Assembly: GCA_004143945.1 (NCBI GenBank)
Contig: SEHB01000003.1
Coordinates: forward strand, 1 to 64,000
Direction: 5' to 3'
Length of the DNA: 64,000 nt
Source of the DNA: Lysobacteraceae bacterium
Lineage (GTDB): Bacteria > Pseudomonadota > Gammaproteobacteria > Xanthomonadales > Rhodanobacteraceae
Below the pieces are notes generated by a model. The model was not told the origin of the DNA. It saw only the letters and a program-made list of their open reading frames with translations, and ran no database searches. A program made the position numbers and the translations under genes. Every line of letters starts with the position of its first letter. The first letter of the stretch is position 1. Of this stretch, positions 2,908 to 56,010 are shown in pieces.

Positions 2908-3441
2908 ATGAAGATGATGCAGAAGGGCTTCACCCTGATCGAGCTCATGATCGTCATCGCGATCATCGCGATCCTGGCCGCGATCGCGCTGCCGGCGTAC
3001 CAGGACTACACCGTCCGCTCGAAGGTCTCGGAAGGCATGGTCGGCGCGAGCGCCGCCAAGGTCGCCGTCGTCGAGGCGTTCCAGGCCGGCGGCATGACCG
3101 GCGTCAAGGCGGTTGCGGCGGACTACGCCAATCCGAACGCCTCCACCAGCTCGAAGTATGTGCAGTTCATCTCGATCGATGAAGACAACGGCATGATTAC
3201 TGCTACCTACGACGCGACCAATGAGAACGGTATCCCGACGACCGAACTCGGCAAGACGCTGACGTTCTCGCCGTACGCGATGGCGACCGGCGCCCCGGTT
3301 CTGATCAATACGGCTGGCGCCTCCGGTTCGATCGACTGGGGCTGCTCGTCGCTCACCCACGTCACGGCAGACGATCGCAAGCTCGCTCCGATCGTGGCTG
3401 GTTCGCTGACCCCGAAGTACGCGCCGGCCGAGTGCCGTTGA
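2908..3441 (+). CDS. pilA: Type IV pilus major pilin, copy 1
   Basis: Structural subunit of the type IV pilus, 177 aa. The class III leader is MKMMQKG; prepilin peptidase would cut after Gly7, giving a mature N-terminal Phe and Glu at mature position 5 (GFTLIELM). The hydrophobic helix spans about residues 8-32. The C-terminal domain carries Cys146 and Cys176, the expected disulfide pair, and ends PAECR. AGAGGA lies 8-13 bp before the ATG. It is preceded by a sigma-54 promoter and followed by its own terminator, so it is probably expressed at high level and separately from the second pilin. The peptidase, assembly ATPase and platform protein are encoded about 12 kb downstream. Confidence 0.95.
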
Positions 3442-3497
3442 TCGCTTGACCTGATCGGCTTCCGGCCTGCGTCCCGGGCCGGTGGCAGTGCGATACC

Positions 3498-3528
3498 GGA
3501 AGCCCCGCACTGCGGGGCTTCCTTTTTC
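3498..3528 (+). terminator. Rho-independent terminator after pilA
   Basis: An 11-bp perfect stem, GGAAGCCCCGC (3498-3508) with GCGGGGCTTCC (3512-3522), has a 3-nt loop and is followed by TTTTT. It separates the two pilin genes. Confidence 0.9.
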
Positions 3529-3629
3529 AGGGCCGCTTGCCGGCCTTGTCCGGAACCGTGGGTCCGGACTGCGCGAGATGCGCTGAACCCTCCACGCCAC
3601 GCTTCTGGCCGGTCGACTAGGGGGCCGTC

Positions 3630-4157
3630 ATGAAAGCTGTCGTTGCGCGCGGTTTCACGCTGATCGAACTCATGATCGTGATCGCGATCATCGCGATCCT
3701 CGCGGCGATCGCGATCCCCGCCTACCAGGACTACGTGGTGCGCGCGAAGCTCATCGAAGGCTTCGGCGGCGCCACCAGCATCAAGCCGTCGATCGGCGCC
3801 GCGTTCGCGGGCAACGGGATGACCGGCGTCAAGGGCATCGCCGACGACTACCCGATGAACAACACGAGCACGAGCAGCAAGTACCTGCGCTTCGTGCATG
3901 TCGCCGATACCGGCGTCATCACGGCCTACGTCGCCGCGACGCCGAGCAACGGCATCCCGTCCGACCTCGACGGCACCACGTTCACGCTGACGCCGCAGAT
4001 CGCGAGCGCGGCGGGCTACGTCGCGCTCGATTTCGATACGCCTGGCCGCATCGACTGGGCCTGCGCCTCGCTCTCCAATGTCGTCGCGGACGCGCGCAGC
4101 ATGCTGTACACGCCCGGCACGCTGCCCTCGAAGTACCTGCCGGCCGAGTGCCGCTGA
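3630..4157 (+). CDS. Type IV pilus major pilin, copy 2
   Basis: Second type IVa pilin, 175 aa, paralogous to the gene just upstream. The leader is MKAVVARG with cleavage after Gly8, followed by [20 protein letters not shown], nearly identical to copy 1 through the assembly helix. The body diverges, but both keep MTGVK, TSSKY, two cysteines (Cys145, Cys174) and the ending PAECR. AGGGGG at 3619-3624 serves the ATG. The gene lies beyond the terminator of copy 1 and no second -24/-12 promoter is evident between them, so it may depend on read-through or a weaker promoter. Tandem pilins are usual in Xanthomonadales pil loci. It could supply an alternative or minor fibre subunit. Confidence 0.93.
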
Positions 4158-4253: not shown

Positions 4254-6173
4254 ATGACGACCCCTGACCTCCGCCGGGCAGCCCGTTGGCTGTTCGCCGC
4301 GGCCCTCGCGCTCACCTGCGTCGTCTACTGGCCCGGATTGTCGGGCGGCTGGTTCTTCGACGACTTCCCGAACATCGTCGACAACGCCGATGTCCAGCCG
4401 CAGCGTCTGGGCGTCTCCGAACTCGTCGCCGCGGCGCTGTCTTCGCCCGCGAGCGACCTCAAGCGACCGCTCGCTTCACTGAGCTTCGTCGCGAACCATG
4501 CAATGGGCGGGCTCGACCCATTCGGATGGAAGCTCACCAACCTCGCGCTGCACCTGCTCAATGGCGCGCTCGCGTGGTTGCTTGCGCGCGCGCTGTTCGC
4601 GGCGAGCGCGCTGCGCGCGCGCCCGGTCGCGCACGCGCGGCTGGCCGCGAGCCTGGTCGCGGGCGGATGGCTGCTGCTGCCGATCAACCTGTCCGCGGTG
4701 CTGCTCGTCGTGCAGCGCATGGAGATCCTCGCCAACCTGTTCGTGCTCGCCGGCCTGCTCGGTTACGTCGGCGCGCGGCGGCGCATGCTCGAGCGCGGCG
4801 ACGGCGCCGGCCTGTGCATCGCGAGCCTGATCGTGCCGACGCTGCTCGGTGCGCTCGCGAAGGAAACGGCCGTGATGCTGCCGCTGTACGCGCTGCTGGT
4901 CGAGGCGACGCTGTTCGGCTTCCGCCGCTCGTCCGGCGGCCTGGACCGTCGCATCCTCGGCCTGTTCGGCGGCGTGCTCGTGCTGCCCGCGATCGCCGGC
5001 CTCGCATTCCTCGCGCCGTGGGTGCTCGATCCGGCCACCTGGGTCGCGCGCGATTTCACGCTCGCGACGCGGTTGCTCAGCGAGGCGCGCATCGTGGTCG
5101 CGTACATCGGCTGGACGCTGCTGCCGTTGCCGCAGTCGCTGTCGTTCTACCACGACCATTTCGCGGTCTCGCAGGGCGTGCTCGCGCCGTGGACCACGCT
5201 CGCGAGCCTGCTCGCGATCGCCGGGCTGCTGCTGCTCGCGTGGCGAATGCGCGACCGGCTGCCGCTGCTCGCGCTCGGGATCGGGCTGTACTTCGCCTGC
5301 CACCTGCTGACCGCAACGGTGATCCCGCTGGAGCTGATCTACGAGCACCGCAACTACTTCGCGAGCTATGGGCTGCTGCTCGCGGTGGTGCCGTTGCTGC
5401 TCGCGCCGACGCCCTGGCCCGCGCGCGTGCGCCACGCGCTGCTCGCGATCCTGATGCTCTGGTGGTGCGCGATGACCTGGCTCACCGCGCAGGCCTGGGG
5501 CGATCCGCTGCGCCTCGCCGCCGACCTCGCGGCGCGCGCACCGGATTCACCGCGCGCGCAGTACGGCTTCGGCCGCGCGCTGCTCGATCGCAGTGGCCCG
5601 ACGCCCGCATCACCGCTGTTCGCCCAGGCCTACGAGGTGCTCGAACGTGCGGGGGCGATGCCCGAGTCGTCGATCCTGCCCGAGCAGGCGATGATCCTGA
5701 CCAGCAGCCTCGTCGGCCGGCCGGCCGAGGATCGCTGGTGGGACCGCCTCATCGACAAGCTCGCGCGGCGCGCGCCCAACAACGAGGACATCAGCGCACT
5801 CGGCGCGTTGACGCGCTGCGAGCGCAACGGCGACTGCAACCTGCCGCACGAGCGCATGCACGCCGCGTTCGAAGCCGCCGAGGCGCACCCGGGCAAGCGC
5901 GCGAAACTGCTGGCGATCCGCTCCGACTGGGCGTGGAGCGTGCTCGGCGACCGCGTGCTCGGCGAGCGCTATGCGCAAGCCGCCGTCGAGGCCGCGCCGT
6001 CGGATGCGGATGCCCGCGTGACGCTCGCGCGCATGAACATCGTGCTCGGGAACATCGCGAAGGCGCGCGAACAGCTGCTCGCGATCGAAGGATTGAACAC
6101 GGGCGGGCGCCACGATCGCCTGATCGCCGGGCTGCGCCCGCTGGTCGAGCGCTCGATGCCGGCTGCACAATGA
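4254..6173 (+). CDS. GT-C membrane glycosyltransferase-like protein with TPR tail
   Basis: 639-aa polytopic membrane protein. An N-terminal helix is followed by the acidic loop FFDDFPNIVDN, then PLASLSFVANHAMGG, KETAVMLPLYALL and YEHRNYFASYGLLL. This pattern is seen in GT-C proteins related to the TMTC/O-mannosyltransferase type. About ten hydrophobic segments span residues 10-420. The remaining 200 residues are soluble and helix rich, with tetratricopeptide-like pairs near the C terminus. The acidic residues in the first periplasmic loop are typical of GT-C active sites. It follows two pilin genes, so an O-glycosyltransferase acting on pilin (the role of TfpO/PglL proteins elsewhere) is a reasonable guess, but the sequence is not a recognisable TfpO. 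I chose ATG 4254 over GTG 4230 because the hydrophobic helix follows more closely. Confidence 0.7.
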   Translation: MTTPDLRRAARWLFAAALALTCVVYWPGLSGGWFFDDFPNIVDNADVQPQRLGVSELVAAALSSPASDLKRPLASLSFVANHAMGGLDPFGWKLTNLALHLLNGALAWLLARALFAASALRARPVAHARLAASLVAGGWLLLPINLSAVLLVVQRMEILANLFVLAGLLGYVGARRRMLERGDGAGLCIASLIVPTLLGALAKETAVMLPLYALLVEATLFGFRRSSGGLDRRILGLFGGVLVLPAIAGLAFLAPWVLDPATWVARDFTLATRLLSEARIVVAYIGWTLLPLPQSLSFYHDHFAVSQGVLAPWTTLASLLAIAGLLLLAWRMRDRLPLLALGIGLYFACHLLTATVIPLELIYEHRNYFASYGLLLAVVPLLLAPTPWPARVRHALLAILMLWWCAMTWLTAQAWGDPLRLAADLAARAPDSPRAQYGFGRALLDRSGPTPASPLFAQAYEVLERAGAMPESSILPEQAMILTSSLVGRPAEDRWWDRLIDKLARRAPNNEDISALGALTRCERNGDCNLPHERMHAAFEAAEAHPGKRAKLLAIRSDWAWSVLGDRVLGERYAQAAVEAAPSDADARVTLARMNIVLGNIAKAREQLLAIEGLNTGGRHDRLIAGLRPLVERSMPAAQ

Positions 6174-6249
6174 CGACGCGCGCGCTCGCGTCACCCGATG
6201 GCGCCGCATCCGCGCGTGCGCCGCGTGCGCGACAACCGGATCCTTCGCC

Positions 6250-7119
6250 TTGAACCACGCCACCGACCTTCCGCTCGTCAGCATCGGCATGCCGGTCTAC
6301 AACGAGGCGCGCTTCATCGACGCGAGTCTCGCTTCGCTGCGGCGGCAGGATCATCCGAACCTCGAGATCGTCGTCTGCGACAACGCCTCCGGCGACGACA
6401 CCGTCGCGATCTGCGAGCGCCATGCGCGCGAGGATGCGCGCATCCGCATCGTGCGCGCGAGCGAGAACCACGGCGCGATCTCGAACTTCCAGCGCGCGCT
6501 GGATGAAGCGCGCGGCGACTTCTTCCTGTGGGCGGCAGGGCACGACCTCTGGAGCCCGAACTTCGTCTCCGCGTGCCTCGGTGCGCTGCTCGCCGATCCG
6601 CGCGCCTGCCTCGCGTTCGCGTGCTCGCGATGGATCGATGGCGCGGGCGCGCCGCTCGCGCGCGCGTCCGGCTGGACCGATACGCGCGGCATGGATCCGC
6701 TCGCGCGGTTCTTCACGGTGTACTGGGGCAACATGCATCCGATCCTCGGCCTCATGCGCACACCCGACCTGCGCGCCTGCACGCCGCTGCTGCAGCTGAC
6801 CGGCGGAGACCTCGTGCTGCTGTCGCGGCTGAGCCTGCGCGGCGACTTCGCGCACGCGCCGGCCGCGCTCTGGAGCCGGCGCGAGTTCCGCGCGGAGGCC
6901 CGCTACGAAGACAAGCTCAGGCGCTACGCGTCGAAGGATGTCGCGATCGCGAAGTCGCTGCTGCAACGGATGTTCCCGCTCGTGCAGCTGCCGTTCGCAT
7001 TGATGCGCGTGGTGTGGCGGGCGCCGTTGCCATGGCTCGACCGGATCGGCGCGCTGCTCGTGCTGCTCGCATCGTTCCCGCTGCGCTATCGGGTCGGGCG
7101 GCGTGACAACGCACGATGA
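6250..7119 (+). CDS. Family 2 glycosyltransferase
   Basis: 289-aa GT-A fold enzyme. It opens PLVSIGMPVYNEARFIDASL, followed by VVCDNASGDDT, the nucleotide-binding aspartates of GT2. The usual DxD is not obvious: the equivalent place reads FFLWAAGHDLW. The C terminus has a hydrophobic stretch (about residues 240-280) that may dock at the membrane. The only in-frame start before the GT2 motif is TTG at 6250, since the next ATG (6289) would remove the first beta strand. It lies between the GT-C gene and a flippase-like gene, overlapping the latter by 17 nt. It probably transfers a sugar onto a lipid-linked or protein-linked glycan; donor and acceptor are unknown. Confidence 0.8.
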   Translation: MNHATDLPLVSIGMPVYNEARFIDASLASLRRQDHPNLEIVVCDNASGDDTVAICERHAREDARIRIVRASENHGAISNFQRALDEARGDFFLWAAGHDLWSPNFVSACLGALLADPRACLAFACSRWIDGAGAPLARASGWTDTRGMDPLARFFTVYWGNMHPILGLMRTPDLRACTPLLQLTGGDLVLLSRLSLRGDFAHAPAALWSRREFRAEARYEDKLRRYASKDVAIAKSLLQRMFPLVQLPFALMRVVWRAPLPWLDRIGALLVLLASFPLRYRVGRRDNAR

Positions 7120-8044
7120 CGCACCCGCCAGCGCGCGCGCGGCGGCCACGCTGCGGCGCGTACTCGCGGTGCTTCGCTGGCTGTTCGCACCGCTAGCGCT
7201 GCTCGCGCTCGCATGGGCCGGCTGGCACGCGCGCCCGCTGTTCGCGCTCGTGGCGGGCCAGACCGATCGCGCGCTCGTGCTCGCCGCGATGCTGCTGTGG
7301 ATCTCGCTGCACCTGCTGACGCCGCTTTTCACGTGGATCGTGCTGCACGGTATCGGCGCGGGTGTGCCGTATCGCACGTTGCTACGCATCCATGTCGCGC
7401 GGCTGCCCGCGCGCTACCTGCCGGGCGGCATCTGGCACACGGTGTCGCGCGCGATGGACCTGCATCGGCTCGGCGTGACGCGCCGGCATCTGTCGGTCAT
7501 GGTCGTGCTCGAGCATGCCGTTCCCGCGGGCGCTGCGTTGATGCTCGGCGGTCTGGCGCTTTCGCTGTCGGGCGCCGCAACCTGGCTCGCACCCGCTGCC
7601 GCCGTCGCGGGCGTCGTCGGTCTCGCCGCGACGTGGGTCGCGCTGCGCCATCCCGCGCTTCGACTCGCACGCAGGTTCGAATGGCCTCGCTACCTCGGGC
7701 TCGTCGCGACCATCTGCGGCTTCTGGCTGGTGGCCGCGACCGCGTTCCTTTGCTACTGGAGCGCGTTCCCGCTGGTGGTGCGCGGCGACGCGCCTGTGCT
7801 GCAGCTGTATGGCGCCTACCTGCTCGCGTGGGTCGCGGGCTTCGTCAGCGTATTCGCGCCACAAGGCATCGGGGTGTTCGAATCCGTCGCCGGCCTGTTC
7901 CTGCGCGGAACGCTCACGCTCGGCGGTACCGCCGTGCTCGTGGCGGGATTCCGCATCGTGGTGCTCGGTGCGGACCTCGCGGCATTCGGCATCCTCTGCG
8001 CATGCCGCTTGTTGCGTCGTCGCGGCGGCCCGGACGCGCATTGA
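7103..8044 (+). CDS. Lysylphosphatidylglycerol-synthase-TM (UPF0104) family membrane protein
   Basis: 313-aa integral membrane protein with about eight hydrophobic segments. It has ARYLPGGIWHTVSRAMDL and VFAPQGIGVFESV, the two signatures of the UPF0104/MprF-type membrane domain. There is no aminoacyl-transfer domain, so it is not a full MprF. Members in polysaccharide loci are suspected to move lipid-linked intermediates or phospholipids across the membrane, although this is not firmly established. The GTG start overlaps the preceding glycosyltransferase by 17 nt, indicating co-translation. A second member of the family lies at 22092-23027, also beside a GT2 gene. Confidence 0.75.
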   Translation: MTTHDDAPASARAAATLRRVLAVLRWLFAPLALLALAWAGWHARPLFALVAGQTDRALVLAAMLLWISLHLLTPLFTWIVLHGIGAGVPYRTLLRIHVARLPARYLPGGIWHTVSRAMDLHRLGVTRRHLSVMVVLEHAVPAGAALMLGGLALSLSGAATWLAPAAAVAGVVGLAATWVALRHPALRLARRFEWPRYLGLVATICGFWLVAATAFLCYWSAFPLVVRGDAPVLQLYGAYLLAWVAGFVSVFAPQGIGVFESVAGLFLRGTLTLGGTAVLVAGFRIVVLGADLAAFGILCACRLLRRRGGPDAH

Positions 8045-8141
8045 CACGGGATTTCACGGTCGGCTCTAATCGTGCAGGCCTGCCATGCATGTTCGCGCGC
8101 GCATCCATGTGCGCCCGTCGCCGGCCCCGGAGACCGCTGCA

Positions 8142-8912
8142 ATGAAAGCCGTGATCCTCGCCGGTGGCCTCGGTACCCGAATCAGCGAGGAAACCGCGGT
8201 CAGGCCCAAGCCGATGATCGAGATCGGCGGGATGCCGGTGCTCTGGCACATCCTGAAGATCTACTCGCACCACGGCATCAACGAGTTCGTAATCTGCCTC
8301 GGCTACAGGGGCTACCTGGTCAAGGAGTACTTCGCGAACTATTTCCTGCACATGTCGGACGTCACGATCGACCTGCGCAGCAACTCGATGGACGTGCACC
8401 ACAAGCATGCCGAGCCGTGGCGCGTGACGCTGGTGGACACCGGCGTCGAGACCCAGACCGGCGGGCGCCTCGCGCGCGTCGCGGGCTACCTCGGCGAGGG
8501 CCCGTTCTGCTTCACCTACGGCGATGGCCTCTCCGACGTCGATGTCGCGGCGACGATCGCATTCCATCGCGAGAAGCGCACCCTCGCCACGGTCTGCGCG
8601 GTGCAGCCGCCGGGGCGCTTCGGTGCGCTCGACATCGAGGAAGGCCGCATCACGCGCTTCGAGGAAAAACCCTCGGGTGACGGCAGCTGGATCAATGGCG
8701 GCTTCTTCGTGCTCGAACGCGCGGTGCTCGACTACATCGACGGCGATGCCTGCATCTGGGAGCGCGGCCCGCTCGAGCATCTCGCGCGCGATGGCCAGCT
8801 GTCGGCGTTCACCCACCACGGATTCTGGCAGCCGATGGACACGCTGCGCGACAAGATGCGACTCGAGGACCTCTGGCGCAGCGGCGCGGCCCCCTGGAAG
8901 GTCTGGTCTTGA
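8142..8912 (+). CDS. rfbF: Glucose-1-phosphate cytidylyltransferase
   Basis: Converts glucose 1-phosphate and CTP to CDP-glucose, the first committed step of CDP-deoxysugar pathways. 256 aa, the usual length. The nucleotidyltransferase signature is ILAGGLGTR (residues 5-13), followed by [28 protein letters not shown] carries the metal-binding aspartate, and GGFFVLE and [10 protein letters not shown] close the fold. An upstream in-frame ATG at 8085 is not preferred, because the family begins at MKAVILAGG and there is no support for the extra 19 residues. The downstream rfbG start overlaps its stop (TTGA). First gene of a seven-gene overlapping cassette. Confidence 0.92.
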
Positions 8913-10000
8913 AGCAGCTGTTCCACGGGGCCTACGCCGGCACGCGCGTGCTGGTGACCGGCCATACGGGCTTCAAGGGTTCGTGGCTGTGCCTGTGGCT
9001 GCATGCGATGGGCGCAGACATCCATGCCCTCGCGCTGCCGCCCGCGGCAGAACCCTGCCACTGGTCGCTGCTCGGCCTGGCCGACGTGCGCGAGCGGCAT
9101 GTCGATGTTCGCGATGCGTCCGCGCTGCGTGCGGCGCTCGCCGACGCGCGACCGGAGATCGTGTTCCACCTCGCAGCGCAATCGCTGGTTCGTCCTGGCT
9201 ACCTGCAACCGTCCGACACGTTCGCGACCAACGTGGCCGGCGTGGTCAATCTGTTCGAGGCCGTTCGCGCATGCGCGTCGGTCCGCGCGGTCGTCAACGT
9301 GACCACCGACAAGGTGTACCGGGAACCTCCCGGCGAATCGGGCTACGCCGAAGACGATGCGCTCGGCGGCCACGATCCCTACAGCACGTCCAAGGCCTGC
9401 GCCGAGCTCGTCACCGACTGCTATCGCAAGAGCTATTTCACGGGGGCCGGCCACCCCGGCCCGCGGCTGGCGAGCGCGCGCGCGGGCAACGTGATCGGTG
9501 GCGGCGACTGGGCCGAGGACCGGCTCGTGCCTGACATGGTGCGCGCGGCCGCGGCTGGCACGCCGCTGCGCCTGCGCCATCCCGACGCGGTGCGCCCATG
9601 GCAGCACGTGCTCGACTGCCTCTCGGGCTACCTGCGCCTCGGCCAGGGCCTGCTCGCGGGCGCCGCGCTCGAAGGCGCGTGGAATTTCGGCCCCGAGCCT
9701 GCGTCCGCGCTTCCGGTTCGCGAGGTCGTCGCCCACGTGCAGGCCGTCTGGCCCCGCCTCGGGGTCGAATCCGCACCGGGGCCGCACCCGCGCGAAGCAG
9801 GCGTGCTCACGCTCGATTGCCGCAAGGCGACCGCGCTCCTCGACTGGCGCCCGGTATGGGATGCCCAGCGGGCCATCCAGCGAACGATGGACTGGTACCG
9901 CGCGTTCGACGAGCGCGGCGACGTGCGCAGCAGCACGGACCTGCGCGCCTACGTCGACGCCGCGCGCGACGCCGGGCTCGCGTGGGCGAAGCTCGCATGA
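8909..10000 (+). CDS. rfbG: CDP-glucose 4,6-dehydratase
   Basis: Short-chain dehydrogenase/reductase that makes CDP-4-keto-6-deoxyglucose from CDP-glucose using bound NAD. 363 aa. The Rossmann motif is [11 protein letters not shown] (residues 16-26), the substrate motif VTTDKVY, and the catalytic pair Tyr158-Lys162 sits in DPYSTSKA. Later [18 protein letters not shown] and RPWQHVLDC are typical of RfbG. The start is TTG, overlapping the rfbF stop by 4 nt, which suggests translational coupling. The 4-keto product is the expected branch point for the epimerase-like, C-methyltransferase and aminotransferase enzymes that follow. Confidence 0.92.
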
Positions 10001-10551
10001 TGCGCGTCCATCCGACGCCGCTGGCCGGGCTCGCCGTGATCGAAACCGATCCCTTCGCGGACGACAGGGGTCGCTTCGAACGAGTGTTCTGCGAGCGCGA
10101 GCTGGCCGCGCTCGATCCCGCCATGCACGTGGCGCAGGTGAACCTGTCGACGACGTTCGAAGCGGGGACGATCCGCGGCATGCATTTCCAGCGCGCGCCG
10201 GCCGCGGAGGGCAAGCTCATCCGCTGCCTCAGGGGCCGCGTGTACGACGTGGCGGTGGACGTGCGCGCCGGTTCGCCCACGTTCCTGAAGTGGCACGCGC
10301 TCGAGCTCGACGCCGATGCGCCGTTGCAGGTGTTCCTGCCCGCGGGCTTCGCGCACGGTTTCCAGGCGCTCACGCCCGACGTGCAGCTGCTGTACCTGCA
10401 CACGCAACGCTGGAACCCCGGGCTCGAGGCGACCCTGCGCCACGACGACCCTGCCCTCGCGATTCGCTGGCCGCTGCCGGTCGGTACGGTGTCGCGCAAG
10501 GACCGCAAGGCCGGACTGATCGACGCGGGTTTCGAAGGCGTGCCTCCGTGA
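9997..10551 (+). CDS. dTDP-4-dehydrorhamnose 3,5-epimerase-like (RmlC) protein
   Basis: 184-aa cupin of the RmlC family. It has the RGMHFQ motif with the catalytic histidine, KLIRCLRGRVYDVAVDVR, FLPAGFAHGFQAL, and the closing IRWPLP. In this CDP-sugar context it probably epimerises C3 and/or C5 of CDP-4-keto-6-deoxyglucose rather than a dTDP sugar. The two adjacent ATGs (9997 and 10000) overlap the rfbG stop codon. RmlC-like genes between rfbG and a C-methyltransferase are a familiar arrangement in other bacteria; the specific reaction here is inferred from position. Confidence 0.85.
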   Translation: MMRVHPTPLAGLAVIETDPFADDRGRFERVFCERELAALDPAMHVAQVNLSTTFEAGTIRGMHFQRAPAAEGKLIRCLRGRVYDVAVDVRAGSPTFLKWHALELDADAPLQVFLPAGFAHGFQALTPDVQLLYLHTQRWNPGLEATLRHDDPALAIRWPLPVGTVSRKDRKAGLIDAGFEGVPP

Positions 10552-11786
10552 AGTGCCGATGCTGCGCCACGCGCCTGGACGAGCCCGGCCTCGACAACGT
10601 GTTCCTGGACCTCGGCACGGCGCCGCCCTCGAACGCGTTCCTGCTGCCGGCCGCATTGTCGGCACCGGAGCTGCATTTTCCGCTCAAGTTGCTGACCTGC
10701 CCGCAATGCCTGCTCGTGCAGGTGGATGAAGTGCAGGCACACACGCAACTGTTCGCGCCCGACTACGCGTACTTCTCGTCGTACTCGCGCTCGTGGCTCG
10801 TGCACGCCGAACGCTACGTCGATGAAGCCCGCGAGAGGCTCGCGCTCGACCAGCGCAGCCTCGTCGTCGAAATCGCGTCGAACGACGGTTACCTGCTGCA
10901 GTACGTCGCGGCGCGCGGCATCCCCTGCGTCGGGATCGAGCCGACCGCGGGAACCGCCGCCGTCGCGCGTTCGCGCGGCATCGAGACCCTCGTCGAATTC
11001 TTCGGTATCGGCAGTGCACGCCGGTTCGTCGCGCAGCGTCGGCGCGCCGACCTCGTCGTCGCGAACAACGTGCTCGCGCACGTGCCCGACCTCGACGACT
11101 TCGTCGCGGGCATCGCGGAGTTGCTCGAGCCGCAGGGCGTGGCGACATTCGAATTCCCGCACCTGCAGCGCCTCGTCGCGCAGCGCCAGTTCGACACCGT
11201 CTACCACGAGCACTTCTCGTATTTTTCGCTGCACGTGGTGCGCCGCGTGCTGGCGCGCCACGGTTTGCGCGCCTGGGACGTGCAGGTCCTGCCGACGCAC
11301 GGCGGATCGCTCAGGGTATGGGCCGCGCGCGACGCGAGCCGCCATCCGGAAACGGCGTCCGTGCATGCGGTGCTCGCGGGCGAAGCGGACGCCGGCATGC
11401 TCGCGATGGACTACTACCGCGGGTTCCAGCGCGAGGCCGATGCGGTGAAGAACGGACTGCTCGAGTTCCTGCTGCAGGCGCGTCGCGAAGGACGCACGGT
11501 CTGCGGCTACGGGGCCGCGGCGAAGGGCAATACCCTGCTCAACTATGCCGGGGTCCGCCCGGACCTGCTCGCGTTCGTCGCCGAGGCGTCCCCGCACAAG
11601 CAGGGGCGCCACCTGCCGGGGTCTCGCATCCCGGTGGTCGCCGAAGCGCATCTGCGTTCGCGACGCCCCGACTACGTGCTGATCCTGCCGTGGAACCTGC
11701 AGGATGAGATTTCGGCGCAACTCGCCTACATTCGCGACTGGGGCGGGCGATTCGTCGTCGCCGTTCCGGAACTGGCGATCTCATGA
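10548..11786 (+). CDS. NDP-sugar C-methyltransferase
   Basis: 412-aa SAM-dependent enzyme with the three-part layout of TylC3-type deoxysugar C-methyltransferases. An N-terminal zinc ribbon has Cys3, Cys5/6 and CPQC (51-54). The Rossmann domain has VVEIASNDGYLLQ (about residues 105-117) and GIEPT. The C-terminal domain carries YHEHFSYFSLHVV, VLPTHGGSLRVW and YGAAAKGNTLL. These enzymes add a methyl group to a carbon next to the ketone of a 4-keto-6-deoxy sugar, commonly C3, giving a branched sugar. The GTG start overlaps the epimerase gene stop and the 3' end overlaps the aminotransferase start, so it is part of one translationally coupled unit. Confidence 0.85.
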   Translation: MKCRCCATRLDEPGLDNVFLDLGTAPPSNAFLLPAALSAPELHFPLKLLTCPQCLLVQVDEVQAHTQLFAPDYAYFSSYSRSWLVHAERYVDEARERLALDQRSLVVEIASNDGYLLQYVAARGIPCVGIEPTAGTAAVARSRGIETLVEFFGIGSARRFVAQRRRADLVVANNVLAHVPDLDDFVAGIAELLEPQGVATFEFPHLQRLVAQRQFDTVYHEHFSYFSLHVVRRVLARHGLRAWDVQVLPTHGGSLRVWAARDASRHPETASVHAVLAGEADAGMLAMDYYRGFQREADAVKNGLLEFLLQARREGRTVCGYGAAAKGNTLLNYAGVRPDLLAFVAEASPHKQGRHLPGSRIPVVAEAHLRSRRPDYVLILPWNLQDEISAQLAYIRDWGGRFVVAVPELAIS

Positions 11787-12904
11787 ACGCAATCGCGTCC
11801 CGCATCCACTATTCCAAGCCCTCGATCACGCAGCTGGAGAGCGGCTACGCGACCGATGCCGCCGCGAATGGGTGGGGCGAACACTGCTACGACTACATCC
11901 GGCGGTTCGAGCAGCAGTTTCGCCGCTACCTCGGCGTGGAGCACGCGATCGCCACGTCGAGCGCCACCGGCGCGTTGCACCTCGGCATGGCCGCGCTCGA
12001 CATCGGCGCGGGCGACGAGGTGATCCTCGGCGACATCAACTGGATCGCGACGGCGGCGCCGATCCGCCACCTCGGCGCGACGCCGGTGCTGGTCGACGTG
12101 CGCGAGGACAGCTGGTGCCTGGACCCGATCGCGGTAGCGGCGGCGATCACGCCGCGCACGAAGGCGATCGTCGCCACGCACGTGTACGGAAACCTCTGCG
12201 ACATGGACGCGTTGGGCGCGATCGCGCGGCGACATGGCCTGCACCTGGTCGAGGACGCGGCCGAGGCCGTCGGCTCGACCTGGAACGGCAGCAGGGCCGG
12301 ATCCCTCGGCACGTTCGGGGCGTTCTCCTTCCACGGGACGAAGACGGTCACGACGGGCGAAGGCGGGATGTTCGTCACGCGCGACGCGGCGCTGCACGAG
12401 CGCGTGCTGACCCTCTCCAACCATGGTCGCGCACGCGGCGAGCAGCGCCAGTTCTGGCCCGAACGCATCGGCTACAAGTACAAGATGTCGAACGTCCAGG
12501 CGGCGATCGGGTGCGCCCAGCTCGAGCGCGTGGAGGAACTGGTCGCCGCGAAACGCGCGATCTTCTTCCGCTATCGCGACCTGCTGGAGGGATTGCCGCT
12601 CGCGATGAATCCGGAACCCGCGGGTTCGACCAATGCGTTCTGGATGCCGACGATCGTGGTCGACGCCGATGTCGCCTTCGATCGCGACGCGCTGCTGGCC
12701 GCGTTCAAGGCCGACAACATCGACGGCCGCGTGTTCTTCTGGCCTTTGTCGTCGCTGCCGCCGTTCGAAGGCCACCCGCGTCCGCGCGTGAGCCATTCGG
12801 TCTCCGGCCGCGCGCTCAATCTCCCGAGCTACCACGACATGACGGGCGCGGACATCGAGCGTGTCGCATCGCACGTGGTCGCGGCGCTCGGCGGACGTCG
12901 ATGA
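11783..12904 (+). CDS. DegT/DnrJ/EryC1-type sugar aminotransferase
   Basis: 373-aa PLP enzyme. The predicted cofactor lysine is Lys187 in FSFHGTKTVTTGEGG, so it is an aminotransferase and not the RfbH-type 3-dehydrase, where this lysine is a histidine. Other family marks are ATSSATGALHLGMAAL, LVEDAAEA, and YKYKMSNVQAAIGCAQL. The sequence looks close to perosamine (4-amino-4,6-dideoxy) synthases, which aminate C4 of a 4-keto sugar with glutamate. Here the likely substrate is the methylated CDP-4-keto-6-deoxyhexose. The ATG overlaps the upstream stop by 4 nt and the next ATG overlaps its own stop. Confidence 0.87.
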   Translation: MNAIASRIHYSKPSITQLESGYATDAAANGWGEHCYDYIRRFEQQFRRYLGVEHAIATSSATGALHLGMAALDIGAGDEVILGDINWIATAAPIRHLGATPVLVDVREDSWCLDPIAVAAAITPRTKAIVATHVYGNLCDMDALGAIARRHGLHLVEDAAEAVGSTWNGSRAGSLGTFGAFSFHGTKTVTTGEGGMFVTRDAALHERVLTLSNHGRARGEQRQFWPERIGYKYKMSNVQAAIGCAQLERVEELVAAKRAIFFRYRDLLEGLPLAMNPEPAGSTNAFWMPTIVVDADVAFDRDALLAAFKADNIDGRVFFWPLSSLPPFEGHPRPRVSHSVSGRALNLPSYHDMTGADIERVASHVVAALGGRR

Positions 12905-13554
12905 CGCGCGTCGTCGTCTGGGGCGCGACCGGGCACGCCGCCGTCGTGCGCGAAGCGCTCGGTGGCACGGCGACCCTGCTCGCCCTGTTCGACAACCGCG
13001 ACATCCCCTCGCCGTTCGACGGCGTCGCGATCCACCTCGGCGAGGCGGGTTTCGACGACTGGGAACGTGGATACCGGGGCGAGCGACCCGTGCATGGCTG
13101 CGTGGCGATCGGCGGAGCCGGCGGACGCGACCGGCTCGCACGCATGCATTGGCTCCACCTACGCGGTTACCCGCCCCTGGCCGTCCTGCATCCACGCGCG
13201 TTCATCGCCGCCGATGCATCGCTCGGCGCGGGTTGCCAGGTGCTCGCGATGGCCGCGGTCTGCACCCGCGCCACGCTCGGCGAGGCGGTCATCGTGAACA
13301 CCGGCGCGTCGGTGGACCACGATTGCATCGTCGGCGACGGCGCCCATCTCGCGCCGGGCGCGAGGCTCGCGGGTGAGGTCGTGGTCGGCGAATGCGCGTT
13401 CATCGGCACCGGCGCCGTGGTGCTGCCGCGCATCCGGATCGGCGCCGGCGCGATCGTCGGCGCCGGTGCCGTCGTCACACGCGACGTGGCCGCGGACGCC
13501 ACGGTGGCCGGCAATCCCGCCCGCCTCCTGCGCAGGAACCCGTCCCATGCATGA
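12901..13554 (+). CDS. NeuD/PglD-type sugar O/N-acyltransferase
   Basis: 217 aa. An N-terminal nucleotide-sugar-binding lobe (VVVWGATGHAAVVREAL) is followed by a left-handed beta helix of hexapeptide repeats (about residues 95-205) with NTGASVDHDC, LAPGARLAGEV and VGAGAVVTRDV. The ending VAGNPARLLRR is typical. The central histidine of VDHDC corresponds to the catalytic base in PglD. Placed directly after the aminotransferase, it would acetylate or otherwise acylate the new amino group. ATG overlaps the aminotransferase stop; its 3' end overlaps the next gene by 8 nt. Confidence 0.85.
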   Translation: MTRVVVWGATGHAAVVREALGGTATLLALFDNRDIPSPFDGVAIHLGEAGFDDWERGYRGERPVHGCVAIGGAGGRDRLARMHWLHLRGYPPLAVLHPRAFIAADASLGAGCQVLAMAAVCTRATLGEAVIVNTGASVDHDCIVGDGAHLAPGARLAGEVVVGECAFIGTGAVVLPRIRIGAGAIVGAGAVVTRDVAADATVAGNPARLLRRNPSHA

Positions 13555-14284
13555 AGACCAGGACCCCGAAGCGGCGTTCCGCGAATCGGTCGCCCGCAAC
13601 GTCGACGGACTCAAGCAGGATCCTTCGATGCGGCGGCAGTCCGACGAGTGGCTGTTGAACTCGCTTCCGCACCGCTATTCCTACAACTTTCGCTGGATGG
13701 GCAGGCCGCTCATCCAGTACCCGCAAGACATGCTCGCGATGCAGGAGATCCTGTGGGACGTGCGGCCGGACCTGATCGTCGAGACCGGGATCGCGCATGG
13801 CGGCTCGCTGGTCTACTACGCCTCGCTGTGCGAGTTGATGGGACACGGCGAGGTCGTCGGCATCGACATCGACATCCGCGCGCACAACCGAGCGGCGATC
13901 GAGGCGCATCCGATGTTCCGCCGCATCACGCTGGTGGAAGGCTCGAGCACCGCCGCGGATGTCGTGGCCCAGGTGCAGCGCATGGCGGCGGGGAAGAAGG
14001 TGCTGGTCGTGCTGGACTCGAACCATACCCATGACCACGTCCGCGACGAACTCGCCGCGTATGCGCCGCTGGTGTCGCCGGGGAGCTACTGCGTCGTGTT
14101 CGATACGGTGATCGAGGACCTGCCGCGCGGCCTGTACCCTGATCGCCCCTGGGACGTCGGCAACAATCCGAAGACGGCGGTGCGGGAATTCCTCGCCGCG
14201 CACCCGGAGTTCGTCGTCGATACCGACATCGAGGCGAAGATCCAGATCACGGTCGCGCCGGGTGGCTACCTGCGCCGCCTGTAG
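13547..14284 (+). CDS. CmcI / cephalosporin-hydroxylase family protein (SAM-fold)
   Basis: 245 aa of the CmcI-like family, which has a methyltransferase Rossmann fold. Visible motifs are LIVETGIAHGGSLVYYASL (nucleotide loop), VVGIDIDIRAHN, VLVVLDSNHTHDHVRDEL and YCVVFDTVIEDLP. Homologues in polysaccharide clusters are commonly annotated as cephalosporin hydroxylase, but are more likely sugar O-methyltransferases or related enzymes. It ends the overlapping cassette, suggesting a final tailoring step such as methylating a hydroxyl of the CDP sugar. The reaction cannot be fixed from sequence. Confidence 0.75.
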   Translation: MHEDQDPEAAFRESVARNVDGLKQDPSMRRQSDEWLLNSLPHRYSYNFRWMGRPLIQYPQDMLAMQEILWDVRPDLIVETGIAHGGSLVYYASLCELMGHGEVVGIDIDIRAHNRAAIEAHPMFRRITLVEGSSTAADVVAQVQRMAAGKKVLVVLDSNHTHDHVRDELAAYAPLVSPGSYCVVFDTVIEDLPRGLYPDRPWDVGNNPKTAVREFLAAHPEFVVDTDIEAKIQITVAPGGYLRRL

Positions 14285-14378
14285 CAGCCCACCCCGTGGG
14301 CGATGCACGCAAGACCCGGATTCCCACGCTGCAAACGGATGTCCGCGGATCGCGCACAGGGTGCGCTCCGACGGGTCG

Positions 14379-15227
14379 TCATGCATCGCGCCGATAGGTG
14401 AGCGCGGTGATCTGTTCGGAAATCAACCCGATCAGGAAGATGATGACCGCGGCGCTGAACAGCAGCAGGCTCATGTTCGTGAAGCGGTGTTGCGTCGTGT
14501 AGGTCCACGCGTAGTAGCCGAGCCCGGTCAGGAAAAACAGCGCGCTCGCGGGCAGGAACAGTTTCAGTGGCGAGTACAGCGTCGCGATCTTGAAGATGAT
14601 GAGCAGGAAGCGCAGGCCGTCGCGCAGCGGGCGGATGTGGCTCCGGCCGATGCGCCGCGCGACCGGCACGGGCTCGTATGCGACCGCATACGCGCTTCGG
14701 AAGAACGCCATCGTGCAGGTGGTCGGGTACGAGAAGCCGTTCGGCAGCAGGTGCAGGAATTCGCGGAACCTGTTCGCGCGCACCGCGCGGAAGCCCGAGG
14801 TGAGGTCCCTGACCACGCAACCCGTCATGCGGCTCGCGAGCCAGTTGTAGAGCGTGTTCGCGATTCCGCGGCTGACCCCGGCCTGGCCGGCCCAGTCGCG
14901 CGCGCCGACGACCATGTCGTAGCCTTGGTCGAGACGCTGCAGCAGGCGCGCGATCAGTGCGGGGTCATGCTGGCCATCGGCATCCATGAACACGAGCACG
15001 TCGCCGCGCGCTTCGCGCGCGCCGCGCTTGATCGCGGCACCGTTTCCCATCGAATAGGGCTGGCGCAGCGTGCGCACGCCGGCTTGCGCGCAGAGCTGCG
15101 CGGTGTCGTCGGTCGAGCCGTCGTCGACGATGATGATCTCGGCGTCGGGCTGCGCCTCGCGCAGGCGCGGCAGCAGGCCCGCCAGCGCGGCGGCTTCGTT
15201 CTTCGCGGGCAGGATGATGCTGAGCAT
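14379..15227 (-). CDS. GT2 polyprenyl-phosphate glycosyltransferase-like protein
   Basis: 282 aa, convergent with the CDP-sugar cassette. The GT2 domain resembles dolichol-phosphate mannose synthase, with SIILPAKNEAAALAGLLPRL, IIIVDDGSTDDT, FMDADGQHDP (the DxD motif) and VVGARDWAGQAG. Residues about 205-275 form two hydrophobic segments separated by a short loop. This is the layout of GtrB-type enzymes that load a sugar onto undecaprenyl phosphate for use outside the membrane. Such a donor would suit the GT-C protein at 4254-6173. It is the only - strand gene between the pilin genes and pilB. Confidence 0.8.
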   Translation of the reverse strand: MLSIILPAKNEAAALAGLLPRLREAQPDAEIIIVDDGSTDDTAQLCAQAGVRTLRQPYSMGNGAAIKRGAREARGDVLVFMDADGQHDPALIARLLQRLDQGYDMVVGARDWAGQAGVSRGIANTLYNWLASRMTGCVVRDLTSGFRAVRANRFREFLHLLPNGFSYPTTCTMAFFRSAYAVAYEPVPVARRIGRSHIRPLRDGLRFLLIIFKIATLYSPLKLFLPASALFFLTGLGYYAWTYTTQHRFTNMSLLLFSAAVIIFLIGLISEQITALTYRRDA

Positions 15228-15305
15228 GGAGTCCCCTGCGGGCGGCGATGCCGCCTCCAGGTCCCGATGATGCCCGAGGCAGCGAGGGTGGGCGAGCGCC
15301 GCCCC

Positions 15306-15397
15306 GTAGGCTGGACGACCGAAGGTCGGCCGGCCGCTTGTGCCGTTTGCGTCGCAAGCGCGAGAAGCGCCGGCCGCGCTGCGCGCGTCCAGCCTAC
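15306..15397. repeat. GTAG-type paired palindromic (REP/BIME-like) element
   Basis: Begins GTAGGCTGGACGACCGAAGG and ends in the inverted form CGCGTCCAGCCTAC. Inner arms GGTCGGCCGGCC and GCGCCGGCCGCGC can pair. GTAG at both outer ends and a head-to-head pair of hairpins are hallmarks of REP elements mobilised by RAYT (TnpA-REP) transposases. No such transposase is in the window. Lies in the 427-bp region between a GT2 gene and pilB. Confidence 0.8.
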
Positions 15398-15415
15398 GAA
15401 GCGCGCATGCCGGGC

Positions 15416-15508
15416 GTAGGCTGGACGACCGAAGGTCGGCCGGCCGCTTCTCCGGATACGGGTCTAAACCGCCAGAAGCGCCGGCCGCGCTGCGCGCGTC
15501 CGGCCTAC
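15416..15508. repeat. GTAG-type paired palindromic element, second tandem copy
   Basis: Starts 18 bp after the first copy with the same GTAGGCTGGACGACCGAAGG and ends CGCGTCCGGCCTAC, one base different in the right arm. The central linker differs from copy 1. After it, 15509-15654 is the leader of pilB; I see no clear promoter there. Confidence 0.8.
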
Positions 15509-15654
15509 GCGGGTCCGGTGGCTTTCGGCGCCTTTTGGGCTACGCGAATCGCCGTTATGTGCCGCAGGTCGCCATTCCGGCGTGGCGGGAGTTCAATCGG
15601 CACGGTATTTGGAGTAGATTCAGTTTTGGATTCGGGGGCTTACACGGCATTCCT

Positions 15655-17385
15655 ATGGCGACGCAGATGAATACCCCGCCGCTGGCCGGCTTGACGGGCA
15701 TTGCCCGGCGCCTGGTGGTCGAAGGCGTGCTCGCCGAAGCCGAAGCGCGCAAGGCGGCCGAGGACGCGGCGCGGCAGAAGATCCCGATCGGCGCCTGGAT
15801 GGTCGAGAACGGGCTCGCGTCGGGTCGGCAGGTCGCGACCGCCTCGTCGGCGGAGTTCGGCATGCCGCTGCTCGACGTGCAGGCGATGGACTTCAGCCAG
15901 CTGCCGATGAACCTGGTCCGCGAGGACCTGATCGCGAAGCACAAGGCACTGCCGCTGTTCAAGCGCGGCAACCGCTTGTTCGTCGGCATCGCCGACCCGA
16001 CCAACGTGCGCGCGCTCGAAGAGATCAAGTTCCAGTCCAACCACATCGTCGAGCCGATCCTGGTCGAAGTCGACCTGCTCGATCGCGCGATCGAGCAGGC
16101 ACAGAGCGCGGCGTCCAACGTGATCGCCGACCTCGGCGAGGATTCCGAAGGCCTCGACAGCCTCGACGTCGGCTCGGTCGACGACGACGGCGATTCGACC
16201 GGTGTCGATGCGACCGGCGGCGAGGATGCGCCGGTCGTGAAATTCGTGAACAAGGTGCTCGTCGACGCGATCAAGCGCGGCGCATCGGACATCCACTTCG
16301 AACCCTACGAATCGGCCTATCGCGTGCGCTTCCGCATGGACGGCATGCTGCGCGCGGTCGCGGCTCCGCCGGTCAAGTTGAGCCCGCGCATCTCCTCGCG
16401 CCTCAAGGTCATGAGCGGCCTCGACATCGCCGAGAAGCGCGTGCCGCAGGATGGGCGCATCAAGCTCAACCTGTCCAAGACCAAGGCGATCGACTTCCGC
16501 GTCAGCACCTGCCCGACGCTGTTCGGCGAGAAGATCGTGCTGCGCATCCTCGATGCCTCGGCCGCGAAGATGGGCATCGAGAAGCTCGGCTACGAGGACG
16601 ACCAGAAACAGCTGTTCGTCGACGCGATCGCCAAGCCCTACGGCATGGTGCTCGTCACCGGTCCAACCGGCTCGGGCAAGACCGTGTCGCTGTATACCGC
16701 GCTCAACATCCTCAATACCGAAGGCCGCAACATCTCGACGGTGGAGGATCCGGTCGAAATCCGCCTGCCCGGCGTGAACCAGGTGCAGCAGAACGTCAAG
16801 CGCGGCATGACCTTCGCTGCTGCGCTGCGCTCGTTCCTGCGCCAGGATCCGGACGTGATCATGGTCGGCGAAATCCGCGACCTCGAAACCGCCGAGATCG
16901 CGATCAAGGCGGCACAGACCGGCCACATGGTGCTGTCGACGCTGCACACCAACGACGCCGCGCAGACGATCTCGCGCCTCATGAACATGGGCATCGCGCC
17001 GTACAACATCACCTCGTCGGTGACGCTGGTCATCGCGCAGCGCCTCGCGCGACGGCTGCACGACTGCAAGAAGCCGCTGGCCCTGCCGCCGGCCGCGCTG
17101 CTCGCCGAAGGCTTCAGCCAGGCGGACATCGACGCGGGCATGCAGATCTTCGACGCAGTCGGTTGTTCCGGCTGCAACGAGGGGTATAAAGGCCGCACGG
17201 GCATCTACCAGGTCATGCCGATGACCGAGGCGATCCAGAAGATCATCCTCGAGGGCGGCAGCGCGATCGCGATCGCCGAACAGGCGCGCAAGGAAGGCAT
17301 CCGCGACCTGCGCGCATCGGCCCTGATGAAGGTCAAGCAGGGCGTCCTGAGCCTCGCCGAAATCAACCGCGTCACCAAGGACTAA
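15655..17385 (+). CDS. pilB: Type IV pilus extension ATPase
   Basis: Cytoplasmic hexameric ATPase that powers pilin polymerisation. 576 aa, the usual length. The N-terminal MshEN/T2SSE-N domain (about 10-180) is followed by the catalytic domain, with Walker A GPTGSGKT (336-343), the Asp box, Walker B DPDVIMVGEIRD, and a His box in LSTLHTNDAAQT. A cysteine cluster (LHDCKK, VGCSGCNEGY) matches the zinc site of PilB. The SASDIHFEPYE-type motif appears as GASDIHFEPYE. ATG 15655 is chosen because the family begins here; upstream in-frame sequence runs through repeat DNA. pilC follows after 3 nt. Confidence 0.96.
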   Translation: MATQMNTPPLAGLTGIARRLVVEGVLAEAEARKAAEDAARQKIPIGAWMVENGLASGRQVATASSAEFGMPLLDVQAMDFSQLPMNLVREDLIAKHKALPLFKRGNRLFVGIADPTNVRALEEIKFQSNHIVEPILVEVDLLDRAIEQAQSAASNVIADLGEDSEGLDSLDVGSVDDDGDSTGVDATGGEDAPVVKFVNKVLVDAIKRGASDIHFEPYESAYRVRFRMDGMLRAVAAPPVKLSPRISSRLKVMSGLDIAEKRVPQDGRIKLNLSKTKAIDFRVSTCPTLFGEKIVLRILDASAAKMGIEKLGYEDDQKQLFVDAIAKPYGMVLVTGPTGSGKTVSLYTALNILNTEGRNISTVEDPVEIRLPGVNQVQQNVKRGMTFAAALRSFLRQDPDVIMVGEIRDLETAEIAIKAAQTGHMVLSTLHTNDAAQTISRLMNMGIAPYNITSSVTLVIAQRLARRLHDCKKPLALPPAALLAEGFSQADIDAGMQIFDAVGCSGCNEGYKGRTGIYQVMPMTEAIQKIILEGGSAIAIAEQARKEGIRDLRASALMKVKQGVLSLAEINRVTKD

Positions 17386-17388
17386 TCC

Positions 17389-18672: not shown

Positions 18673-18691
18673 TCGGCAGGCAATCCGTCGA

Positions 18692-18723
18692 AACGCGGGC
18701 GCTTCGGCGCCCGCGTTCGTTTG
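18692..18723 (+). terminator. Stem-loop terminator after pilC
   Basis: Perfect 11-bp stem AACGCGGGCGC / GCGCCCGCGTT (18692-18702 and 18707-18717) with a UUCG tetraloop. It is followed by only a short T-run (CGTTTG), so termination may be partial and pilD may be read through. Confidence 0.65.
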
Positions 18724-18741
18724 CGGCACCCCTTCGCACCC

Positions 18742-18826
18742 GTAGGCTGGACGCGCGCAGCGCGGCCGGCGCTTCTGCGACGACGAGGCGAACAGCGGCC
18801 AGCCGACCTGCGGTCGTCCAGCCTAC
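18742..18826. repeat. GTAG-type paired palindromic element
   Basis: Same family as 15306-15397 in the opposite orientation: starts GTAGGCTGGACGCGCGCAGC and ends GGTCGTCCAGCCTAC. It sits between the pilC stem-loop and pilD. Confidence 0.8.
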
Positions 18827-18930
18827 GGACGCGGGGACGCAGGCGGTCGGGTGGCTTCCCGGACGATGCGCTACATTGTGGCTTTCGGCGATCGCCGTCG
18901 TACTGCGTCCAGACAGAAGACACGCCCACG

Positions 18931-19944: not shown

Positions 19945-19954
19945 GTCGATCGCG

Positions 19955-20590: not shown

Positions 20591-20671
20591 GCTGGAAATC
20601 GCAGGCCGGCCGGCTGCTCGTTGCCGCAAACGCGCCTGAAGCGCCGGCCGCGCTGCGCGCGTCCAGCCTAC
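20587..20671. repeat. GTAG-type element shared by two convergent stop codons
   Basis: Starts GTAGGCTGGAAATCGCAGGC and ends GCGCGTCCAGCCTAC. The left GTAG supplies the TAG stop of coaE (20588-20590) and the right end, on the other strand, supplies the TAG stop of the convergent gene (20670-20668). The central 77 bp is the whole intergenic region, and probably acts as a bidirectional structural terminator. Confidence 0.85.
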
Positions 20672-48234: not shown

Positions 48235-48616
48235 GAAAAATCGGGATTTCGGGCGCGGTTTTTTCAGGCGGATTTCAGCAAATCTAAGGGGGATTGTGAG
48301 GAGCTGACGGCAACATGTTGAAAGCATTGCAGGCGCCGGGCGAAGGTGCCCCGCACCGCGCGCGCGGGCGGAACCGATTCGCGCGCCTCGCGGAGAGAGA
48401 TGCCGCGAAGCGGCAGCAGGGAGCTGGCTTGATCACGGTCCACGGGGGATGCGCGCGCAGATCAACGGCCGCGCCCATCCGCCCCCGCGGGGCCCCTTCT
48501 GCCGCAGGCGGGAGAAGGGAAGCTACCGCAAGCGGGAGAAGAGGAACGCGCGGAACCGGACGCTGAAATGAAGCCGCAGCACCCGCGCGCGAATGACGGG
48601 GGCCCGAAGATGAAGT
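48235..48616. other. Gene-free stretch between mraZ promoter and rnpB
   Basis: No convincing gene. The A/T-rich part (48235-48300) lies upstream of the mraZ promoter. At 48484-48540 are GC-rich palindromes (GCCCCCGCGGGGC and CTGCCGCAGGCGGGAG), related to the hairpins near secA and ribD. A + strand open frame at 48315-48566 is Arg/Gly/Ala rich without a ribosome site and is not credible. Confidence 0.6.
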
Positions 48617-55943: not shown

Positions 55944-56010
55944 GTCGATGAGCATGCGGCGCCCCGGCTCCCGGGGCGCCGCGATCTGGCGCGCGGCGAG
56001 CGCCGCGTGC

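Follow-up and report, generated by a model that had tools for sequence, protein, structure and literature searches.

A polymorphic locus between the pilin genes and pilB probably serves pilin glycosylation, with a GT-C/TPR protein as the transferase and a donor that is lipid-linked

Between the pilin genes pilA1 and pilA2 (2908-4157) and the genes pilB, pilC, pilD, and coaE (15655-20590) of a soil bacterium, the 64,000-nucleotide stretch of DNA analysed here (the window; contig SEHB01000003.1) carries a cassette of 11 glycan genes. The cassette is one allele of a polymorphic locus that is found across the order. Its ends are conserved, with a protein that combines a GT-C glycosyltransferase fold with tetratricopeptide repeats (the GT-C/TPR protein) on the pilA side and a DPM/ArnC-like GT2 glycosyltransferase (GT2b) on the pilB side, while the middle is swapped between loci. 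Judged from gene content and position, this is likely a pilin-glycosylation locus that uses a lipid-linked donor and the GT-C/TPR protein as transferase, and most likely it gives the pilus a different sugar tag in each strain.

The GT-C/TPR protein has matches in 163 of the 197 same-family genomes, with all 26 genera represented, and pilins are present in 191 of the 197. A profile search matched 154 of 299 same-order genomes, 73 of them from the window's family and 81 from outside it. The best 80 of 358 matching loci come from Rhodanobacter, Dyella, Frateuria, Luteibacter, Tahibacter, Oleiagrimonas, and others, with one locus each from Solimonas soli and Luteimonas salinisoli. We picked 60 in-family loci by hand for genus spread from the listed matches of the 163 genomes and mapped the window's proteins onto these stretches by tblastn; the upstream side could be evaluated in 57 and not scored in 3. 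In most relatives the homologous loci do not lie away from pil genes: in 54 of the 57, the GT-C/TPR gene has a pilin gene that ends at most 1 kb before it (the misses are L075, L081, and L082; loci carry L numbers and genomes G numbers), and GT2b adjoins and immediately precedes pilB in all 29 in-family stretches that reach pilB. Outside the family, where 40 of the 81 matching genomes were sampled, 39 loci are linked to pil. Of these, 35 show the pilin signature upstream under a strict test, and in L222 and L229 tblastn detects an upstream pilin; L224 has a pilin directly downstream of the GT-C/TPR gene, and in L220 a pilin precedes a second GT-C/TPR copy of opposite orientation. Only L217 has no pilin in its stretch. 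The order in L210, L221, L226, and L241 is coaE-pilD-pilC (in reverse), pilin, GT-C/TPR, cassette, GT2b, and in the last three of these pilB follows GT2b. The block thus keeps its place between pilin and pilB where the other genes are rearranged. All three further same-genus genomes checked (G120, G057, and G176) again have a pilin directly upstream of the GT-C/TPR gene; in G120 two GT-C/TPR genes directly follow the pilin, and pilB (L109) is on another contig with no cassette beside it.

A first-pass annotation of the window had described the cassette as an unusual insertion between pilus genes that are normally neighbours. The layout recurs across the order, and therefore neither "inserted" nor "normally neighbours" fits these relatives. 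A recent foreign insertion in this genome was rejected for want of a step in G+C content, which is alike in the cassette (0.66-0.73 in 1-kb segments) and in the first 25 kb (0.64-0.74). What remains of that interpretation, on indirect grounds, is that the pilin gene has a dedicated system beside it and that the donor is lipid-linked. The genes it listed are all present where it placed them, according to open reading frame (ORF) calls and Pfam or NCBIfam families.

The exchange of the middle of the cassette was examined in 122 unique loci, of which 78 are complete from GT-C/TPR to GT2b and 44 are incomplete and were left out of cassette counts. ORFs were called by a composition score, which reproduced the window's genes except for some starts, and were clustered with a cut of 38% identity and 65% coverage. 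The 928 cassette ORFs fall into 282 clusters, 165 of them singletons, and a complete cassette holds 7.3 ORFs on average. No cluster is common to 1923 of the 3003 pairs of complete cassettes, 18 pairs share at least 80% of their clusters, and the mean Jaccard index is 0.059. Likeness between cassettes hardly correlates with backbone identity (rho 0.08 for GT-C/TPR and 0.10 for GT2b). Among the 125 cassette pairs with a GT2b identity of at least 88%, 74 have no cluster in common, and L087 and L157 have all clusters in common, yet their GT-C/TPR proteins are only 38% and their GT2b proteins 75% identical. Of the 122 loci, 19 contain the rfbF cluster. The gene of the glycosyltransferase GT2a (6250-7119) co-occurs with that at 7103-8044 and with the cytidine diphosphate (CDP)-sugar genes in L038, L051, L087, L132, L157, L207, L225, and L228, and in Tahibacter the CDP-sugar genes are inverted as one block (L038 and L051, which are identical with L124 and L180). 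G+C contents of cassette and pilB agree with exchange in L053 (0.522 vs 0.607) and L156 (0.501 vs 0.613) and give no sign of it in L038 (0.644 vs 0.628).

One kind of protein persists through this exchange. A polytopic protein, with at least 4 hydrophobic segments, is encoded in 78 of 78 complete cassettes, and 76 have exactly one. Flippase-type proteins, assigned by size, cluster, and Pfam match, are Wzx-type in 51 of these cassettes, of about 300 amino acids in 21, and PglK-like ABC proteins in 5; L112 has both a Wzx-type and a 300-residue protein, and the other 77 have exactly one flippase-type protein. This tally counts the L083 protein, which is fused to a methyltransferase and has a weak PF03706 match (E 0.0098), as the 300-residue kind, and does not count a second polytopic protein in L060, presumably the one behind the single PMT_2 match in the Pfam tally, which does not name its members. 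PF03706 is found in 15 of 24 aligned 300-residue proteins and the rest, including that of the window, were placed by the alignment, from which two small polytopic proteins in incomplete loci (L075 and L170) were left out; of the 59 other polytopic proteins in complete cassettes, 50 have PF01943 and 5 have ABC domains. In held-out complete cassettes from outside the family, which were not used to find the rule, a polytopic protein is present in 27 of 27 and is the only one in 24; in the other three (L208, L218, and L224) the additional one is an acyltransferase/SGNH protein (two cases) or a spermine-synthase protein (one case). A 300-residue member occurs in 17 of the 27 (10 with PF03706) and a Wzx-size protein in 10 (7 with PF01943, L211 with only a weak match, and L203 and L205 with none). 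As a small background, only 3 of 29 seven-ORF runs between 20.6 and 64 kb of the window have exactly one polytopic protein.

The 300-residue protein of the window (7103-8044, + strand; 313 amino acids) is a polytopic LPG_synthase_TM/UPF0104-type protein whose structure model has the MprF flippase-domain fold. In contrast to MprF, it has no aminoacyl-phosphatidylglycerol synthase domain and stands in the Wzx/PglK slot of glycan cassettes. From their exchange with Wzx and PglK in this slot, proteins of this kind are predicted to be flippases as well. In-family cassettes with the 300-residue kind are shorter than those with the Wzx kind (median 6064 vs 8254 bases, Mann-Whitney p 0.0009). L033 and L034, among the smallest, encode one GT4 enzyme, one methyltransferase-like protein (assigned by cluster or by eye), and the 300-residue protein, a content that would fit a short unit extending from the GT2b sugar.

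Alleles without the cassette also bear on its function. In L102 and L104 the pilins immediately precede pilB, and GT-C/TPR, cassette, and GT2b are all absent together; upstream of the pilins there is instead a membrane protein of ~240 amino acids, a putative TfpY/TfpZ-type accessory protein. L100 and L103 likewise have no cassette block. In L103 the 4.9 kb before pilB encode, at the cassette position between the pilins and pilB, a membrane protein of 602 amino acids and one that is methyltransferase-like, which may belong to a different accessory system. The kinds of genes in the cassette are those of O-antigen loci, which favors another explanation, namely that the cassette makes a surface glycan such as O-antigen or exopolysaccharide in a pil hot spot and that the GT-C/TPR protein decorates a lipid or polysaccharide. 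Three-component GT-C systems that decorate O-antigen do exist (PMC11127046). However, the GT-C/TPR gene is linked to pilA across the order, L102 and L104 lack both it and the cassette, most cassettes encode a single polytopic protein and therefore no Wzy, and the Wzy_C/ligase-type genes of this genome are located elsewhere. We consider a surface glycan quite unlikely.

The candidate pilin glycan transferase is the GT-C/TPR protein itself (4254-6173, + strand), a polytopic protein of 639 amino acids with C-terminal TPR that forms the conserved left boundary. Its structure model (predicted local distance difference test score, pLDDT, 90) matches STT3, PMT, and ArnT, which points to a GT-C fold, and its first periplasmic loop carries an acidic pair. 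TPR_19 is found in 26 of 28 GT-C/TPR members at E≤1, and the architecture of a GT-C domain followed by C-terminal TPR is that of TMTC proteins (GT105). Parts of the TMTC motifs can be recognized (DD, RP, R-x-acid, KE(T), and E..(R)..Y): compared by eye, M1 is present, M2, M3, M4, and M7 are partial, and M5 and M6 are not seen. Among the first 25 of 26 families listed for these 28 proteins at E≤1, neither TMTC/DUF1736 nor the Wzy_C/O-antigen-ligase domain (PF04932/IPR007016) appears, and the latter is likewise missing when the window protein is searched at E≤10. The suggestion of the first-pass annotation that the transferase is unlike TfpO and PglL is thus supported, indirectly. The protein sequence matched nothing in the PDB, and a PDB search with the family profile gave mostly weak TPR matches, none below E 0.02. 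The GT-C/TPR protein could alternatively be a TfpY-like pilus assembly factor without catalytic activity, with the sugar genes as bystanders, but acidic and basic residues at positions of the GT-C active-site type are invariant across its relatives, and it and the cassette are missing together from L102 and L104, making such a role highly improbable.

At the other boundary, GT2b (14379-15227, − strand) is a polyisoprenyl-phosphate glycosyltransferase of the DPM/ArnC/GtrB type (PDB 5mlz, 2.3e-15; 9hwj, 5.7e-15) with a DxD-type motif and two hydrophobic segments that would form C-terminal membrane helices. Residues D82, D84, Q86, and H87 are identical in all 69 non-gap rows of a 79-row alignment. 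Its best NCBIfam match is AglJ (4e-32, 112 bits, far below the cut-off of 325). The archaeal pathway started by AglJ builds a multi-sugar donor linked to a monophosphate, dolichyl phosphate; the system proposed here would be similar, and would differ in being bacterial and in its expected O-linkage. The donor might instead be an undecaprenyl-pyrophosphate oligosaccharide started by a chromosomal WecA, with GT2b adding one periplasmic sugar and pilin again the acceptor. Enzymes of the WecA/MraY type (PF00953) occur in 15 of the 15 genomes tested, two or three in each, so that a test of the carrier by absence of WecA failed. Most cassettes moreover use Wzx or PglK-like flippases, which move pyrophosphate-linked units in known systems, as is also described for Wzx in PMC11127046. 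Against a pyrophosphate-linked donor, none of the 40 matches to PF02397 initiating transferases in 46 genomes is inside a cassette, nearly all complete cassettes lack a second polytopic protein of the WecA kind, and a DPM/ArnC-type enzyme is the conserved boundary. A WecA-started donor therefore appears possible but rather unlikely.

Taking these observations together, we infer the enzyme activities, an undecaprenyl monophosphate (Und-P) carrier, en bloc transfer, and pilin as the acceptor. GT2b would charge undecaprenyl phosphate with the first sugar on the cytoplasmic side, and the enzymes of the middle of the cassette would make and add further sugars, in the window a CDP-sugar added by GT2a. 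The MprF-fold protein would flip the lipid-linked glycan, and the periplasmic face of the GT-C/TPR protein would move a single, unpolymerised unit onto the pilin encoded next to it, which the TPR domain may hold or recognise. We are less sure of the carrier and of the order of transfer than of pilin glycosylation. Two GT-C/TPR copies in tandem are found in 45 of the 57 evaluable in-family loci, which would suit a sequential scheme in which the GT-C/TPR protein puts the Und-P-linked sugar of GT2b on pilin singly and a second copy or another enzyme adds the cassette sugar. Sequential transfer is unlikely, in our judgment, as the window and 12 of the 57 loci have a single copy, some with the same kind of cassette (L038 and L051). 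Weak additional GT-C/TPR-like matches (25-35%) also lie several kb upstream of the pilins in L125, L137, and L152. Pilin is the acceptor predicted from gene position alone, and pilA2, the nearer pilin gene, is the probable one.

Several observations weigh against en bloc pilin glycosylation from an Und-P-linked donor. No conserved acceptor serine or threonine was found in the C termini of the pilins, and the C-terminal serine that is frequent in the pilins of relatives is a glutamate in both pilins of the window. The PF00953 enzymes of all genomes tested offer another starting point for the donor. L105 keeps GT2b and pilB without GT-C/TPR or cassette, and L236 has the order pilA-GT-C/TPR-pilB without cassette and GT2b. 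Of the 54 in-family stretches that extend 11 kb downstream, 9 showed no GT2b, as did 10 of 40 stretches from outside the family; most of those without it end before pilB. The kind of flippase has no Pfam confirmation in part of the 300-residue group, given the PF03706 counts above, and the 11-segment proteins of L203 and L205 match no flippase family in Pfam. Finally, Foldseek alone gave no match to the GT-C/TPR model at E≤1e-3, with TPR proteins ranked first.

The other genes of the window's cassette, all on the + strand, would specify a C-methylated 4-amino-deoxysugar. RfbF, a glucose-1-phosphate cytidylyltransferase (8142-8912; TIGR02623, 459 bits, cut-off 300), and RfbG, a CDP-glucose 4,6-dehydratase (8909-10000; TIGR02622, 429 bits, cut-off 278) and the only one above the cut-off in this genome, are predicted to make CDP-4-keto-6-deoxyglucose. 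They are followed by an RmlC-like sugar epimerase (9997-10551; PF00908, 1.8e-55; 146.8 bits, slightly below the RmlC equivalog cut-off of 155.75), a sugar 3-C-methyltransferase-like protein (10548-11786; PDB 5t64, 1.6e-74, and 4rv9, 1.3e-70), a DegT aminotransferase nearest to perosamine (4-amino) synthases (11783-12904; PDB 3bn1, 3.5e-78), a NeuD/PglB-family sugar N-acyltransferase (12901-13554; TIGR03570, above the cut-off), and a protein of the CmcI/rhamnosyl O-methyltransferase family (13547-14284; PF04989, 2.2e-94). Because the C-methyltransferase, the perosamine-synthase-like DegT protein, the acyltransferase, and the CmcI-type O-methyltransferase accompany RfbF and RfbG, the predicted product is a CDP-3-C-methyl-4-acylamido-4,6-dideoxyhexose, possibly O-methylated; we take this sugar to resemble kansosamine. 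GT2a (6250-7119; PF00535, 2.7e-27), a cytoplasmic glycosyltransferase, is the candidate for its transfer. Most neighboring + strand genes of the cassette overlap by 4 to 17 bases.

On the + strand around the cassette lie the type IV major pilin-like gene pilA1 (2908-3441; PF00114, 7.7e-15) and the second pilin gene pilA2 (3630-4157; PF00114, 2.7e-10), with a terminator-like hairpin and T run between them (3498-3522); from pilA2 to the GT-C/TPR gene the same scan detected no such site. On the other side are pilB (15655-17385, approximate start; ORF call and tblastn to relatives), pilC (17389-18672) and pilD (18931-19944), both by ORF call and mapping to relatives, and coaE (19955-20590; mapping to relatives). 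Repeats of 30-60 bases, REP (repetitive extragenic palindrome)-like in look, flank the pil genes (15305-15517, 18741-18827, and 20621-20680). A tRNA-Arg called by ARAGORN at 4581-4671 is probably false, since it lies inside the conserved GT-C/TPR reading frame. Directly after coaE, a second glycan module (20668-24612, − strand) resembles a separate three-component system and contains a 475-amino-acid polytopic protein without a Pfam match, an MprF-type relative (22092-23042), a methyltransferase, and a DPM-like GT2 with membrane segments. Elsewhere in the window are a spermidine-synthase-like gene with a membrane N terminus at the contig start (14-2612, + strand), apparently split into two frames near 1000 by a frameshift or a sequencing error, an RNase P RNA (48614-48965, − strand; RF00010), and two neighboring proteins (54510-57784, + strand) with a common stretch in the N-terminal region, GLG.VLVYPYYTV.KNQDTLI.

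Among the matches listed in open-access titles and abstract openings, we found no account of pilin glycosylation in Xanthomonadales or Rhodanobacteraceae, of a TMTC-like pilin transferase, or of a PF03706 protein as a glycan flippase, which is weak evidence of absence, with preprints and most subscription papers outside this scope. We tentatively propose, as an idea that falls somewhat short of probable, a new class of bacterial pilin oligosaccharyltransferase, TMTC-like in its GT-C/TPR architecture and supplied with an archaea-like Und-P-linked multi-sugar donor. With it would go a third class of flippase for lipid-linked glycans, the PF03706-type proteins of MprF fold, interchangeable with Wzx and PglK. 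If true, the locus would be a plug-in site with a fixed starter, a fixed attachment enzyme, an exchangeable sugar, and a matching flippase. Pilin glycosylation would then have a second known solution, and nature would offer a rich library of glycans that can be transferred. That cassettes almost always encode a single flippase-type protein, with an MprF-fold protein in the place of Wzx or PglK, would give a direct genetic handle on flipping of Und-P-linked sugars. Pili could also vary their surface as a defence against pilus-specific phages; in Pseudomonas the glycans on pilin help to evade such phages (PMC11841053), and therefore a role of cassette exchange in phage evasion is testable here.

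The known pilin transferases TfpO, TfpM, PglS, and PglL have O-antigen-ligase-related and WaaL-like domains and one common architecture (PMC12645811). As with TfpO, TfpM, and PglS, the gene of the putative transferase described here is near a pilin gene, and as with all four, a lipid-linked donor and periplasmic transfer are expected, but the GT-C/TPR protein has a GT-C fold with TPR and no O-antigen-ligase Pfam match. TfpW of Pseudomonas (group IV) is a pilin accessory protein that adds arabinofuranose (PMC11841053), as a homopolymer, whereas the cassette here is variable and of many genes, a distinction drawn from descriptions. The animal O-mannosyltransferases TMTC1-4 share the GT-C membrane domain, the extracytoplasmic TPR that follow it, and parts of the motifs (PMC7801869); unlike them, the bacterial, pil-linked protein has no TMTC Pfam match, and neither a DW nor a PxxP motif was seen in it. 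Three-component GT-C systems (GtrA-GtrB-Gtr; GT136) likewise combine an Und-P-sugar synthase, a flippase, and a GT-C enzyme in one locus, a likeness of family and fold only (PMC11127046). Their acceptors are polysaccharides, whereas the locus described here has extra cytoplasmic glycosyltransferases, sugar pathways, and a predicted protein acceptor, and its flippases are MprF-fold, Wzx-type, or ABC proteins, compared with a MATE-family protein in the GT136 system and another kind in GtrA. The locus would therefore combine the position of pilin O-oligosaccharyltransferases with the machinery of three-component GT-C systems.

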